Below, in pieces: positions 2,966 to 26,661 of a DNA stretch of 64,000 nt. Below the pieces are notes generated by a model. That model was not told the DNA's origin. It saw only the letters and a list, made by a program, of their open reading frames with translations, and did no database searches. Source of the stretch: Loktanella sp. DSM 29012 (lineage in GTDB: Bacteria; Pseudomonadota; Alphaproteobacteria; Rhodobacterales; Rhodobacteraceae); assembly GCF_900110705.1 (NCBI RefSeq), contig NZ_FOEJ01000004.1, forward strand, positions 310,001-374,000. Direction: 5' to 3'. The position numbers and the translations under genes are program-made. Numbering within the stretch: the first letter of the stretch is position 1; each line of letters starts with the position of its first letter.

Positions 2966-3010
2966 GCTGTTTGCGGGCGCTGCCCGCAAATGCGCCCCGC
3001 CCGCCGTCCC
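2966..3010 (+). repeat. REP-like palindromic repeat, copy A
   Basis: Directly after the YcaQ-like stop codon is GCTGTTTG, a perfect 9-bp stem with a GCT loop (2970-2990, arms TTTGCGGGC and GCCCGCAAA), then the tail TGCGCCCCGCCCGCCGTCCC at 2991-3010. Flanks and tail recur after smc (26486-26529) and inside cobN (17475-17514), while the stem interior differs. The hairpin may also end transcription of the upstream gene. Confidence 0.7.
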
Positions 3011-13477: not shown

Positions 13478-13555
13478 CCGAATTTTCGCGAAAATTCGGG
13501 TGGGGGCGCTGCCCCCGGCTGCGCCTCCCCCGGGATATTTTTGCCCAGAAGAAGG
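13478..13555. repeat. Palindrome plus GC hairpin and GGGATATTTTT intergenic repeat
   Basis: Begins one base after the ThDP enzyme stop. A perfect 22-bp palindrome (13478-13499, centre TTCGCGAA) is followed by a 6-bp GGGGGC/GCCCCC hairpin with GCT loop (13502-13516), then GCGCCTCCCCCGGGATATTT and AGAAGAAGG before the bluB stop. From memory this architecture recurs in Rhodobacteraceae intergenic DNA. It sits between convergent genes and could act as a bidirectional terminator. Confidence 0.7.
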
Positions 13556-16183: not shown

Positions 16184-19100
16184 CTACAGTAATCCCGCGA
16201 TGCGCGCGCGGGCCGAATTCGATTTGGGTGACCACAGGCCACGGTCGATAGCCTCTTGCAGGCGGGCCGCGATTTCGGCCAGCGCGGGCGCGTTGGTATC
16301 GACGATGAACTGGCGCGTGTCGTCGTCTGCCAGAACGGCCTCTTCGACGAGGTCAAAGTGGTGATTGCGCACGGCCCCGGTCGTGGCGGCAAAGGCAAAG
16401 AGGTAGTCAACGGTCGCCGCGATCTCGAAAGCACCCTTGTAGCCGTGGCGTTTCACACCCGCGATCCATTTGGGGTTCACGACGCGGGACCGCACGACGC
16501 GGCCGATTTCATCCTCGAGCGTGCGGATCAGGGGGCGTTCGGGACGCGAATGGTCGTTGTGATAGATCGGGCGATCCTGCCCCTGAAGCGTGGCGACGGC
16601 TGCGGCGGCGCCGCCCTCGAACTGGTAGTAGTCGTCACTGTCCAGCACATCGTGTTCACGGTTGTCCTGGTTCTGAACGATCGCATCGGTCTGGGTCAGA
16701 CGTTGCTCGAATGCAGGGCGCGCGGCGGTGCCCTTTGCGTCAGCCCCGTAGGCATAAGAGCCCCAGGTCAGATAGGCCTCGGCGAAATCGCTGCGGTCCG
16801 ACCAGATGCGTTCGTCGATCAAGGCCTGCAGGCCCGCACCGTAAGCCCCGGGTTTTGATCCAAAGACACGGGACGCGTCCTCGCCCGCGCGCGCGCGGGC
16901 TGCGGCAGGGTTGATGTCCTGGGGTTCGTCCAGCGCCTGGATCGCGCGGGCGGCACTGTCGACAAGCGCGATCAACTGCGGAAAGGCGTCCCGGAAAAAA
17001 CCCGATATGCGCAGTGTGACGTCGACGCGCGGGCGACCGAGGGCAGACGACGGTATGATCTCGAAACCGGTCACCCGGCGGTTGGCGGCGTCCCACTTGG
17101 GTTTGCACCCCATCAATGCCAGCGCCTGCGCGATGTCGTCGCCACCCGTGCGCATGTTCGCGGTACCCCATGCGGTCAGCAGCAGGCTGCGCGGCCAATC
17201 CCCGTGGGTTTGCAAATGCGTGTCGATCAGCAGGTTGGCGGATTTCCAGCCGAGCGCCCAGGCTGTCGGTGTCGGCACCGCGCGGCTGTCGACGGAATAG
17301 AAGTTGCGCCCTGTCGGCAGGGTATCCAGCCGCCCGCGTGTCGGCGCGCCCGATGGCCCCGGCGGGATCGCGCGGCCATCCAAGGCACGCAGGAGGGCTG
17401 CCCCCTCGTCCGGACCACAGGCGGCGACGGCAGGGCGGATACGCGCCTCGATTTCCGATATGACGGCGGCCGACGCTGTTGGGCTGACGCCCAATGCGCC
17501 CCGCCCACCGTCCCCTGAGGCGGCGCGCAACGTTTCGGGAAGAGTGCCGCTTGTCAAAAGTTCTTGTGACAGCGCCTCTAGCCGCTCGACCGTATCGCCA
17601 TTGGTCCGCCAGCCTTTTGCGTCGCCAAGTGCGCCGGGTTTTTCTGGCGCGGGGGCCGCCAGGTTGCAGTCGAGCGGGTCGATGGACAGGTCGAAATCCA
17701 GCGCGAGCGCGCGCAGCAGCGAGGCATTCGCGCCCTTGCCATCACCACGCGGCACGCGGGCAAGCGCGATGCTGAGGTCGATTTCCTGCTGGCCCGTGGG
17801 GCTGACACCAAAGACATGCAATCCGTCGCGGATCTGTGCCTCTTTCAACTCGCAGAGGTAGGCGTCGAGTTTCGCCAGATCGCCGTCGGCGTCGCCCTTG
17901 AAGCCTGCATCCTGGCTGAGGCCCGTGACCTCTGACAGGGACAGGATTTCGCGGCGCAGGTGGTCGAGACGGCGGGGATCGAGGCCTGCCGCCTCGTAGT
18001 ATTCGTCGACCAGCGCCTCGAGATCGCGCATGGGGCCATAGCTTTCTGCGCGGGTCAGGGGCGGGGTCAGGTGGTCGATGATGACGGCTGCCGTGCGGCG
18101 TTTGGCCTGCGTGCCTTCGCCTGGGTCATTGACGATGAAGGGATAGATATGCGGCACGGGCCCCAGCGTGACCTCTGGCCAGCAGGTACCGGAGAGGGCC
18201 AGCGCCTTGCCCGGCAGCCATTCGAGGTTGCCGTGTTTGCCCATGTGCACGAGCGCATGTGCACCCCAATGGTGGCGCAGCCAGAAATAGAAGGCCAGGT
18301 AGTTATGCGGCGGCACCAGGTCGGGGGAATGGTAGGTCTCGGTCGGGTCGATATTATAACCGCGCGCGGGTTGCAGGGCCACGACCGCATTGCCGAAACG
18401 ATGGATCGACAATTTGAAACCTGCGCTGGTTTCGGTGGCGGGTGCCTCCGGCGGGAGTATTTCCGGCAAGATGATGAACGGGTCGTCGTCAGGTGCGCCC
18501 CAGCGCGTGGTGATCTGTTCGCGGACCTCCCACGGGAGAGCGTCGAAGTGCTGTTGGTAGATGTCGAGCGGCAGGAATTCACCGCCTTCGGTGTCTGCGC
18601 GGTCGGTCAGCCAGTTGGTGGGACCCGCCATCATCTGGTCCATCAGCGCCTGTGCGCTGGCGGGCGGTGCCGTGGCATAGCCTGCGTCTTGCAGCAGCCC
18701 CAACGCGTGGACCGTGGCGGCGGGGGTGTCGAGGCCGACACCATTGGCGAGGCGGCCGTCCTTGTTGGGGTAATTGGCAAGGATCAGGGCGACCTTGCGG
18801 TCGGCTGCGGGGGTGCGCTGAAGCCGTGTCCAGTTGGCGACAAGATCGGCCACCCATGTGATCCGATCACCCTGCGCCTGATAAGTAGCGATGGGACATT
18901 CGGTGGCCGCGTCGAAGAAGGCCTCGCCCTTGAAGCTGATAGCGCGGGTCAGGATGCGCCCATCGACCTCTGGCAGGGCGACGTTCATGGCGATGTCGCG
19001 GGCAGACAACCCCTGGGGGCTGTCGCGCCAGGCCTGTTCGGTGCCGCCTGACAGCACGACCTGGAACACGGGCGCGCCCTGTGCCTGCGGACCGGCCAGT

Positions 19101-19945
19101 GGGTTGTCGGGGCTGTCGTCGCCGTCGTGCGGGCTGCCGACGGCAAAGGCGGTGGCATTCAGGATCACCGATGGCGGGGCCTGTCGGAAAAGTTCCGTCA
19201 GGGTGGCCGTCGACAGCGGGTCCTTGAGCGACGCCACAAAGACGGGCAGCGGGTTGAGCCCCTTGCGTGACAATGCGCGGACGAGCCGGTTGATCGGGGC
19301 AAGCCCGCCGCCCTGCACCAGCGCACGGTAGAACACGATTGGCACGACCGGTGCGCCGTCGGTCCAGGCATCCTGCGCTGCAGCCAGGTCGGCCACACCC
19401 GCGCCGGGCCAGTAGACACCCGCCCGCAGCAGCGGGCTGGCGGGGGCAGGGCGGTCGGTATCGTCCACGATGGATTTCGCGCAGGCCAGAAACCGGACGG
19501 CGTTCTGCGGTCCGCCTTCGACAAGGTAGCTCCACAAGGCGTCGTAGTCGGCGTCGGTGACGGTGGACAGGCCGCGCAGGTCGGGGTCCTCTCGGTCGTC
19601 GCCGGGCAGGAACGCGACAGGCACGCCAGCTGTCCGCAGCTGGGCTGCATATTGCGTCAGGCCATAGCGCCAGTATCCGGCACCGCCCAGCACGCGGGCG
19701 ATGACCAGCCGCGATTTCGCGGCACAGGCGTCCAGATGCAGGTCGACCGACATCGGGTGTTGCAGATGCATGAGGCTGGCAAGCCGCAGGCCGGGGGGCG
19801 CGTCCATCGCGGCGCGCGCCTCTGACAATGCAGCGAGTTCTGTATCGGCGGCCGAGATGACAACCACATCGGCGGGTGTCTGGCCCAGATCGATGGGTTC
19901 CGTCCCGTCGGATATCGCGCCCGCACTGGCGGCCAACAGATGCAT
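16184..19945 (-). CDS. cobN: Cobaltochelatase subunit CobN
   Basis: Large subunit of the ATP-dependent aerobic cobaltochelatase (CobNST), which inserts cobalt into hydrogenobyrinic acid a,c-diamide. The 1253-residue protein is full length and has the CobN/BchH hallmarks QPARGYNID, HMGKHGNLEWLPGKALAL, IYPFIVNDPGEG, GPSGAPTRGR with PTGRNFYSVD and PTPTAW, and RHGYKGAFE near the end. CobS and CobT are not in this window. Two linkers look inserted relative to other CobN proteins as I remember them: about residues 490-501 (IILPEILPPEAP) and 811-824 (GDGGRGALGVSP). Both coincide with DNA resembling intergenic repeats. The ribosome site lies in an inverted repeat (19952-19969). Confidence 0.97.
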   Translation of the reverse strand: MHLLAASAGAISDGTEPIDLGQTPADVVVISAADTELAALSEARAAMDAPPGLRLASLMHLQHPMSVDLHLDACAAKSRLVIARVLGGAGYWRYGLTQYAAQLRTAGVPVAFLPGDDREDPDLRGLSTVTDADYDALWSYLVEGGPQNAVRFLACAKSIVDDTDRPAPASPLLRAGVYWPGAGVADLAAAQDAWTDGAPVVPIVFYRALVQGGGLAPINRLVRALSRKGLNPLPVFVASLKDPLSTATLTELFRQAPPSVILNATAFAVGSPHDGDDSPDNPLAGPQAQGAPVFQVVLSGGTEQAWRDSPQGLSARDIAMNVALPEVDGRILTRAISFKGEAFFDAATECPIATYQAQGDRITWVADLVANWTRLQRTPAADRKVALILANYPNKDGRLANGVGLDTPAATVHALGLLQDAGYATAPPASAQALMDQMMAGPTNWLTDRADTEGGEFLPLDIYQQHFDALPWEVREQITTRWGAPDDDPFIILPEILPPEAPATETSAGFKLSIHRFGNAVVALQPARGYNIDPTETYHSPDLVPPHNYLAFYFWLRHHWGAHALVHMGKHGNLEWLPGKALALSGTCWPEVTLGPVPHIYPFIVNDPGEGTQAKRRTAAVIIDHLTPPLTRAESYGPMRDLEALVDEYYEAAGLDPRRLDHLRREILSLSEVTGLSQDAGFKGDADGDLAKLDAYLCELKEAQIRDGLHVFGVSPTGQQEIDLSIALARVPRGDGKGANASLLRALALDFDLSIDPLDCNLAAPAPEKPGALGDAKGWRTNGDTVERLEALSQELLTSGTLPETLRAASGDGGRGALGVSPTASAAVISEIEARIRPAVAACGPDEGAALLRALDGRAIPPGPSGAPTRGRLDTLPTGRNFYSVDSRAVPTPTAWALGWKSANLLIDTHLQTHGDWPRSLLLTAWGTANMRTGGDDIAQALALMGCKPKWDAANRRVTGFEIIPSSALGRPRVDVTLRISGFFRDAFPQLIALVDSAARAIQALDEPQDINPAAARARAGEDASRVFGSKPGAYGAGLQALIDERIWSDRSDFAEAYLTWGSYAYGADAKGTAARPAFEQRLTQTDAIVQNQDNREHDVLDSDDYYQFEGGAAAAVATLQGQDRPIYHNDHSRPERPLIRTLEDEIGRVVRSRVVNPKWIAGVKRHGYKGAFEIAATVDYLFAFAATTGAVRNHHFDLVEEAVLADDDTRQFIVDTNAPALAEIAARLQEAIDRGLWSPKSNSARARIAGLL
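17475..17514 (+). repeat. REP-like palindromic repeat, copy B, inside cobN
   Basis: Plus-strand order is GCTG, the stem-loop TTGGGC-TGAC-GCCCAA (17479-17494), then the tail TGCGCCCCGCCCACCGTCCC (17495-17514). The tail differs at one base from copy A (2991-3010). The layout matches copies A and C, but this copy lies in coding sequence and is read in frame on the minus strand as part of a CobN linker. Confidence 0.6.
18444..18478 (+). repeat. GCCTCCGGCGGGAGTATTT-type repeat inside cobN
   Basis: GCCTCCGGCGGGAGTATTT followed by CCGGCAAGATGATGAA resembles the end of the intergenic repeat at 13525-13553 (GCCTCCCCCGGGATATTTTT, then AGAAGAAG). It also resembles what I remember as a common Rhodobacteraceae intergenic motif. 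On the minus strand it encodes the linker FIILPEILPPEAP in CobN. Confidence 0.5.
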
Positions 19946-22566: not shown

Positions 22567-22611
22567 AATGTCGTCTCCTTTGCCCGCCATCCCCGGCGGG
22601 TGGTGTTTCAA

Positions 22612-22818
22612 TGTGCAGGGCCGGTCTCCTGGCTTGCGGGTCAAGGTGCGGCGTCGCCTTCCCGGGGCTGGCCCCAGTGGCATATCGACGGCGCACTCTC
22701 CGCTTACAGTCGCGGGGGCGGCTGCGGCTGGGGGCCTCCTTGATCGGATCGGCCCGTTCCGCATTCCCAGTTTCATCCCCGACGCTTTGCGTCTGTGTGG
22801 GGAACCTTGCCTGCCCTT
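22612..22818 (-). ncRNA. Cobalamin (AdoCbl) riboswitch
   Basis: On the minus strand the conserved blocks appear in order: AAGGTTCCCC, GATGAAACTGGGAATGCGG, CCCCCGCGACTGTAAGCGGA, CCGGGAAGGCG and the B12 box AAGCCAGGAGACCGGCC (22637-22621). It ends about 45 bases before the start codon of the CbiM-like gene, so it probably controls translation or early termination. TTGACG at 22846-22841 with a 17-base spacer to GCACAA gives a plausible promoter that would start the RNA just before the first conserved block. Confidence 0.95.
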
Positions 22819-23014
22819 TGTGCGCCTCGGGGGTGTCCAGCGTCAAGGGCGGACTGCGGCGTTCTGTCAGGCTTTCCCGACGTGAGGGGCTGGCCGGAGC
22901 TGCGCAATATCTTGTGGATAACTGGGCGGATCAGCGCAGATGCGGTGCTGCGCGCGTTGACTCGGGGCTTTGCCGTGACGCATCCTGCCCGCCAGTCCAA
23001 GGATAGCGTGCGCA
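22819..23014. other. Divergent promoter region between the riboswitch and smc
   Basis: About 200 bases with no credible gene. It holds the -35 candidate of the riboswitch transcript on the minus strand and, on the plus strand, TTGACT at 22957-22962 as a weak -35 for smc with no good -10. The smc leader shows only a short AAGGA upstream of its ATG. Confidence 0.5.
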
Positions 23015-26485: not shown

Positions 26486-26529
26486 GCTGTTTGGCCCGTT
26501 CCGGGCAAACCCGCCCCGCCCGCCATCCC
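26486..26529 (+). repeat. REP-like palindromic repeat, copy C
   Basis: Fifteen bases after the smc stop: GCTGTTTG, a hairpin GTTTGGCCCG-TT-CCGGGCAAAC (26489-26510, one bulged G), then the tail CCCGCCCCGCCCGCCATCCC (26510-26529). Compared with copy A (2966-3010) the flanks match while the stem interior is changed to another palindrome. May also act as the smc terminator. Confidence 0.7.
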
Positions 26530-26587: not shown

Positions 26588-26661
26588 TGGAGGCGAGTAC
26601 CGGAATCGAACCGGTCTACACGGATTTGCAATCCGCTGCATAACCTACCTGCCCACTCGCC
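26588..26661 (-). tRNA. tRNA-Cys (GCA)
   Basis: 74 bases including an encoded CCA. The acceptor GGCGAGT pairs with ACTCGCC, the anticodon loop TTGCAAA carries GCA, and the T arm has GGTTCGATTCC. All stems pair when read on the minus strand. Confidence 0.97.

Follow-up and report, generated by a model that had tools for sequence, protein, structure and literature searches.

Palindromic repeats read in frame in cobN, bchB and xdhB of Rhodobacteraceae probably evolve in concert with their dispersed intergenic copies

The gene for the cobaltochelatase subunit CobN in Loktanella sp. DSM 29012 lies at positions 16184–19945 (minus strand) of the 64-kb stretch of DNA analysed here (the window) and contains two segments that look like intergenic repeats. 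This raises the question of whether repeats have entered a conserved enzyme and, if so, how such copies then evolve. The identity of the gene (1253 aa) was supported by profile matches to TIGR02257 (1574.5 bits) and PF02514 (1212.8 bits). The initial annotation had proposed that both segments are repeat elements read through without a change of frame. Translation bore this out, as the 33 bp repeat at site 1 (18444–18476) encodes residues 490–502 (FIILPEILPPEAP) and the 40 bp repeat at site 2 (17475–17514) encodes residues 811–825 (GDGGRGALGVSPTAS), both in frame and without a stop codon. Both repeats lie on the plus strand, opposite to cobN.

The site 1 repeat matches intergenic copies elsewhere in the genome (e.g. 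L049, L054 and L057) exactly over GCCTCCGGCGGGAGTATTTCCGGCAAGATGATG, and is different or absent in relatives. Within it, at 18455–18476 (plus strand), is a 22-bp unit, GAGTATTTCCGGCAAGATGATG, the letters of which serve below as a dialect tag. The likeness of site 1 to the repeat at 13525–13553 had also been pointed out; it is real but looser than that to the copies above, the element at 13502–13554 (plus strand) being an intergenic one of related build with a GGGGGC hairpin (CTCCCCCGGGATATTTTTG..AGAAGAAG) and a related end, CTCCCCCGGGATATTTTTGCCCAGAAGAAG, that resembles elements read through in the bchB gene of some other species. The site 2 repeat begins with GCTG (17475–17478), continues with the stem-loop TTGGGC-TGAC-GCCCAA (17479–17494; 6-bp arms at 17479–17484 and 17489–17494, loop TGAC) and ends at 17514 with a conserved tail. 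Its sister between convergent genes at 2966–3010 (plus strand, L022) has the same plan and differs by 1 base in the 20-base tail, as had been claimed, and the plan is shared by a second intergenic sister at 26486–26529 (plus strand, L028). Because their DNA is identical to that of intergenic copies, the cobN linkers are repeat sequence, and the protein-coding insertion of repeats into cobN is supported. An Rfam search over the window returned only a cobalamin riboswitch (RF00174, 100 bits, 22602–22824, minus strand) in the cobalamin gene region and two tRNAs, one of them (26591–26661, minus strand) just beyond the repeat at 26486–26529; the repeats themselves had no match.

In the window alone neither motif was significant, the observed counts being reached by 18 and 11 of 100 shuffles, and whole-genome counts were therefore decisive. 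The repeats of site 1 (family 2) terminate in a 22-bp unit with sharp boundaries, GAGTATTTNNGGCAAGATGATG, present in 64 near-identical copies in the genome. A genome-wide comparison with GTATTTNNGGCAAGATGATG found 42 exact copies, 22 with one mismatch, none with two and three with three, and one in the reversed control. All positions of the unit are 95–100% conserved except three, namely the two N positions and the last. Upstream of the unit, GCCTCCGGCGG was found with up to two mismatches in 38 of the 64 copies and a CCCCCG-type end in seven, while 19 had neither. The core GCCTCCNNCGGGAGTATTT occurred 36 times with up to two mismatches and not at all in the reversed control. The repeats of site 2 (family 1) follow the plan GCTG, stem-loop and CGCCCCGCCCRCCRTCCC, with 11 sisters in the genome besides the cobN copy, and their consensus is CGCTR, a stem-loop, then GRCGCCCCGCCCRCCRTCCC, with variants. 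Five exact and five one-mismatch copies of the tail GCGCCCCGCCCNCCNTCCC were found, where about 0.2 would be expected at up to one mismatch by our own estimate, in which the control was scaled by the number of possible sequences; at up to three mismatches there was no excess (76 copies vs 77 in the reversed control). Both motifs are thus far above genome-wide expectation, and the insertion idea survives the test of frequency that had been suggested for it. The stems of family 1 vary in sequence and length, yet each is self-complementary, as in the sisters of the cobN stem, and the arms pair over 79 bp in total compared with 43 when they are reshuffled among copies, a total that none of 10,000 reshufflings reached.

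Few copies are inside genes. Placement of the 64 units by a crude codon-based gene caller put 24 in sense and 16 in antisense orientation between tandem genes, 17 between convergent and two between divergent genes and four within genes, with one unplaced, so that 57 of 64 lie between tandem or convergent genes; one of the four in genes (L370) is doubtful by its weak coding score. Twelve family 1 copies had GCTR, a hairpin and the tail. Ten of them were called intergenic, one is that in cobN, and the last (L032) overlaps the start predicted for a gene; L024 has the tail without the full plan. A plain intrinsic terminator was considered and rejected. Although a GC-rich hairpin precedes many units, some come after an apparently complete terminator that has a T run of its own, or lack such a hairpin (examples of one or the other are L371, L304, L368 and L370), and 16 of the 64 face against both neighbouring genes. 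At L059 and L062, one copy belongs to a perfect core palindrome (ACTCCCGTCGGA..TCCGACGGGAGT) and the tail of another, GGCAAGATGAT, recurs inverted a few bases on. At four junctions (L431, L429, L197 and L216) two or three units are adjacent, at times of different dialects, and these may be traces of successive gains.

To place the cobN copies among relatives, 89 CobN sequences were compared, a non-random sample made up of the best 80 of at least 584 confirmed relatives and nine from the genus, in which two pairs are identical and 87 sequences differ; the CobN of G003 and G006 are identical to those of L. salsilacus and Loktanella sp. SALINAS62. The site 1 linker contained the core at up to three mismatches in 26 of the 89 (0.02% of base-shuffled linkers), and the site 2 linker contained the tail in 24 (1.4% of base-shuffled linkers). 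In the genus, site 1 is recognisable in six of nine sequences at up to three mismatches and site 2 in five of nine. Counted from DPF through the next block inclusive, the site 1 linker has 10–16 residues in 49 of 63 element-free sequences vs 24 in the CobN studied here, and the site 2 linker 14–17 residues in 56 of 65 vs 33. In the remaining element-free sequences, 14 at site 1 and nine at site 2, the linkers are longer and differently composed. The initial annotation had held that the flanking blocks are joined by shorter linkers elsewhere, and had named equal linkers in distant CobN proteins as what would speak against insertion; most element-free sequences are indeed shorter, as is the solved CobN 9uk9 at both places, and the proposal stands. 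The cobN insertions are not private, as both places are also occupied in much of the genus and in other Rhodobacteraceae genera.

Read by eye, the recognisable cobN elements have constant orientation and frame. At site 2, hairpins with other letters are found in relatives (TCGGGC/GCCCGA in L082, GTGGGGT/ACCCCAC in L105 and CGCGCC/GGCGCG in L130), while others, L083, L113 and L123 among them, have no clear hairpin left. The linkers of element-bearing genus sequences range from 19 to 38 residues, so indels accompany change there. The linker of L133 is longer than those of L119, L129 and L164, and no clean target duplication was seen by eye. An exact-pattern search of the flanks of 80 named cobN loci found no sisters of the site 2 repeat outside cobN. 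In one genus genome (G002) the only CobN found is diverged (L087, about 41% identity) and element-free, and its xdhB is still element-bearing (L391).

CobN is not the only enzyme involved. In the same genome the 22-bp unit is also found, in sense orientation, in bchB (L050) and xdhB (L077), in each case between two Pfam domains (PF00148 and PF08369 in bchB, PF02738 and PF20256 in xdhB). A screen of 150 core copies at loci fetched from six genomes found eight inside genes by the crude codon-based caller, five in cobN and three in bchB; the xdhB copy escaped the core pattern used. The bchB linker was read by eye in 30 of 87 genomes with a BchB match, together with loci collected earlier. It holds family 2 elements in the genus and in G009, related hairpin-bearing elements in other genera (L335, L339, L347, L350 and L351) and, in L342 and L361, a different repeat read as VPDQVRDG or GQVRDG, which we take to be of the CGTC type. 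Linkers such as those of L337 and L340 had no repeat recognisable by eye. Occupied by different palindromic repeats in different Rhodobacteraceae genera, the BchB interdomain linker appears to be a site where short repeats settle readily.

The xdhB element is present in nine of nine genus genomes with a recognisably common 5′ half, and the stretch that starts at PE and runs to the following conserved block has 17 residues in all nine. The hairpin (GGGGGGCTGTCTGCCCCCC in Loktanella sp. DSM 29012) and the bases after it are kept, with small changes in some sequences. The unit itself differs, being GGCAAGATGATG in three genomes, of AAAAAGCGAG type in three, of ACAGAGAG type in two and CCAGATGAAGG in one. 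At the same place, chain B of the XdhB structure 1jro (presumably from Rhodobacter capsulatus) has GGLSAPPSPPEPIATK at residues ~380–398, a GGLSAP..PPEPIATK linker that resembles a translated element; the xdhB insertion may therefore be old, predating the genus.

Differences of this kind follow the genome in which a copy resides. Among the matches listed, genomes have their own tail letters, often in several dialects, and the cobN copy carries those of its own genome. In G009 it has GGCAAAATGAT, and GCAAAATGAT is found in 13 of the 16 copies listed for that genome; the cobN copy has GAACAAAAGAA in G010, GCCAGGAAGAA in one Jannaschia genome and GACAGAGAG in G001. When embedded tails were compared with other copies in the same genome, 191 of 196 diagnostic letters matched (null mean 149), none of 100,000 permutations was as good, and the own genome was the best or tied in 14 of 14, although relatedness adds to the concordance and the permutation count is not a pure probability. 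The copies compared were selected by hand from those listed for each genome (7 listed of 17 for G010). Of 16 genomes with embedded copies, 14 contributed to the test; G008, G015 and G021, which also have a cobN element or remnant, were not among the 16, and the cobN copies of G005 and G012 were excluded as too diverged. The G005 copy proved to be another dialect; that of G012 remains without explanation.

The G005 case was informative. Its cobN copy at first resembled decay, but CCAGATGAAGG is present in both xdhB and cobN. If change is concerted, these coding copies should have intergenic counterparts with the corresponding letters, and such a family was then found, with 63 copies of GAGTTTNNNNNGCCAGATGAAGG in G005. 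There were none in Loktanella sp. DSM 29012, G004 or G006, and five further genomes of the genus had between 3 and 17, with 0 or 1 in the reversed controls. Overall, families A, B, X, Y and Z are co-resident, with dominance different among sister species. The cobN and xdhB copies are both of Y type (ACAGAGAG) in G001 and G003 and both of X type (AAAAAGCGAG) in G007, with X and Y copies present in all three.

Positions shared between genomes reveal what changes and what does not. Between Loktanella sp. DSM 29012 and G005, 26 pairs of units have both flanking genes in common, where about one would be expected by chance (our estimate, 64 × 63 over some 3,300 junctions). The pairs account for 22 of the 64 units in Loktanella sp. 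DSM 29012 and 24 of the 63 in G005. Orientation is alike in 23; the three opposite pairs are at junctions with two copies. Units were picked by dialect A in the former genome and dialect Z (up to three mismatches) in the latter, so the diagnostic letters are partly set by the search. The flanks are independent of it, although the best-matching copy per locus was taken, and across 21 locus pairs with both flanking genes in common, taken together, the 60 bases on either side, upstream and downstream, were more alike than in all 20,000 shuffles while the unit differs. A few of these pairs (L072, L371 and L058) show little likeness in the flanks. A wider comparison of same-orientation pairs gave 23 A/Z and four A/X pairs with G005, and ten A/X and one A/Z pair with G007, the loci of which were mostly fetched by core rather than tail. 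Seven pairs with G006 share dialect A by choice of locus, and prove shared positions only. At some junctions shared with G007 or G016 the unit is in the opposite orientation; these and the loci with low-likeness flanks are outside the reach of in-place copying. Position, flanks and mostly orientation are inherited, and the unit changes as a whole, at coding sites as at non-coding ones.

Our preferred reading, to which we give a probability of about 0.6, is that these are fixed-position repeats in concerted evolution, the coding copies in cobN, bchB and xdhB included, and that copying in place is likely. Each repeat would once have entered a permissive interdomain linker, antisense in cobN (both repeats) and, for the site 1 element, in sense in bchB and xdhB, at a length and in a frame that still allowed the protein to be read; that the proteins tolerate them, like the direction of change, we infer. 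The sites would then be largely inherited in place while the 22-bp unit evolves in concert, one or a few dialects coming to dominate each lineage in intergenic and coding copies alike. A single site could swap dialect with its flanks unchanged, and in xdhB its length too. New dialects are most likely copied over old ones by ectopic conversion or by annealing of short DNA among repeats, and one genome-wide process would edit the linkers of three enzymes together. Copying in place is indicated by the co-resident families of differing dominance and the switches of cobN and xdhB between them (G001, G003 and G007). Counting against it, several dialects coexist in some genomes, and neither an ongoing conversion nor a donor was observed. 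The stronger statement, that a genome-wide process rewrites the ~22-bp tag in place at tens of fixed Rhodobacteraceae sites, editing the CobN, BchB and XdhB copies together so that the linkers coevolve through constraints on DNA rather than protein, is made tentatively, at a little under even odds.

The main rival is a trans-acting DNA- or RNA-binding factor for which the unit would be the putative site, a shift in specificity moving all sites, coding ones included, by selection. Because the unit is as sharply bounded as a binding site we keep such a coevolving factor in contention, and the near absence of decayed copies, the positions shared between genomes and the scarcity of copies at divergent promoters (2 of 64) are all in its favour. 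However, it requires that several bases change together at tens of sites, the unit is in sense in bchB and xdhB but antisense in cobN, and a drifting factor predicts no switch between persisting co-resident families of the kind that separates G001 and G003 from G007. We consider it unlikely, at roughly one chance in four.

Less probable again is repeated fresh insertion, with a mobile element of changing sequence re-entering identical tolerant sites. The bchB linker does hold different architectures in different genera, as read by eye. On a tree of the 89 CobN sequences built with the linkers left out, presence or absence changes at least 12 times at site 1 and at least 16 times at site 2. Limimaricola hongkongensis has a remnant-like linker of 20 residues where three congeners have 10, and the unit is inverted at some shared junctions. 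Fresh insertion may explain older site gains and the inverted units, but not units that change as a whole between conserved flanks, as the flanks are retained on both sides of a changed unit in most of the 21 pairs, and the xdhB stretch is equally long, with a shared 5′ half, in nine of nine genomes. Mobility driven by a RAYT transposase was ruled out by the absence of the Y1_Tnp domain (PF01797), which had no match in the genome of Loktanella sp. DSM 29012 and matched in 5 of 14 control genomes.

Very improbable is an uptake signal, by which the unit would mark DNA for uptake and recombination with kin would spread and homogenise a dialect. The analogy is with the DUS of the Neisseriaceae, described in PMC3630211 as a short motif that recurs many times across the genome, with one sequence in each species and another in the next. 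This is the closest parallel to the species-wide dialects seen here. Set against that source, however, there are tens of copies (64 per 3.4 Mb) rather than the thousands of a Neisseriaceae genome, and the motif here is 22 bp with GC-rich partners, has dialects that may co-reside and is without a known role in uptake. Chance resemblance of ordinary linkers, which in CobN do vary widely in length, can be dismissed on the core count in the genome, the dialect concordance, the 33 bases identical to intergenic copies and the shuffles, in which 0 of 4450 base-shuffled linkers per site had one mismatch or fewer to the core or tail vs 22 of 89 and 17 of 89 real ones.

The initial annotation had compared the cobN repeats with the Rickettsia palindromic elements. 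These are found in frame within unrelated metabolic genes, according to sections of PMC10969869 and PMC3733652, and the in-frame insertion with flanks still read is shared by the copies in cobN, bchB and xdhB. Compared by description, the elements here are much shorter (33 bp at site 1 and 40 bp at site 2, vs the ~150 bp given in PMC10969869). They differ also in being in free-living Rhodobacteraceae, in few coding hosts, and in the concerted change of dialect in coding copies, which that comparison did not foresee. GTAG- and CGTC-tagged REPs are described in PMC3733652 as small stem-loops located chiefly where neighbouring genes are in tandem or convergent order, a placement shared here by 57 of 64 site 1 units (crude gene caller). 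Some are stated there to be read in frame in proteins, where flexible linkers are suggested for them. By eye, neither family consensus has a GTAG or CGTC tag beside the stem, where GCTG and GRCGCC are found, with GAGTATTT at the unit, and the RAYT transposase associated with the GTAG type had no match in the genome. The terms ‘Rhodobacter’, ‘Roseo’ and ‘Paracoccus’ are absent from the text of PMC3733652. Among the matches listed in open-licence PMC articles, no description of these repeats was found for Rhodobacteraceae, by their letters or as Roseobacter REPs. The elements described here fail the tag, size and copy-number features tested for these three systems.

In-frame palindromic repeats are already known, and are usually treated as insertions that happened not to destroy the protein; concerted change of dialect inside three enzymes is new. 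One practical warning is that the shared linker peptides ILPPEAP, ASGGSIS and PPESIS are not protein motifs. The dialects offer a natural series in which to ask by what means very short scattered repeats are kept alike in bacteria without a recognised transposase, and where the tolerance of enzyme linkers to imposed sequence ends. The coding copies still belong to a dispersed family and follow its changes, and a process acting at the level of DNA appears to rewrite these enzyme loops repeatedly.
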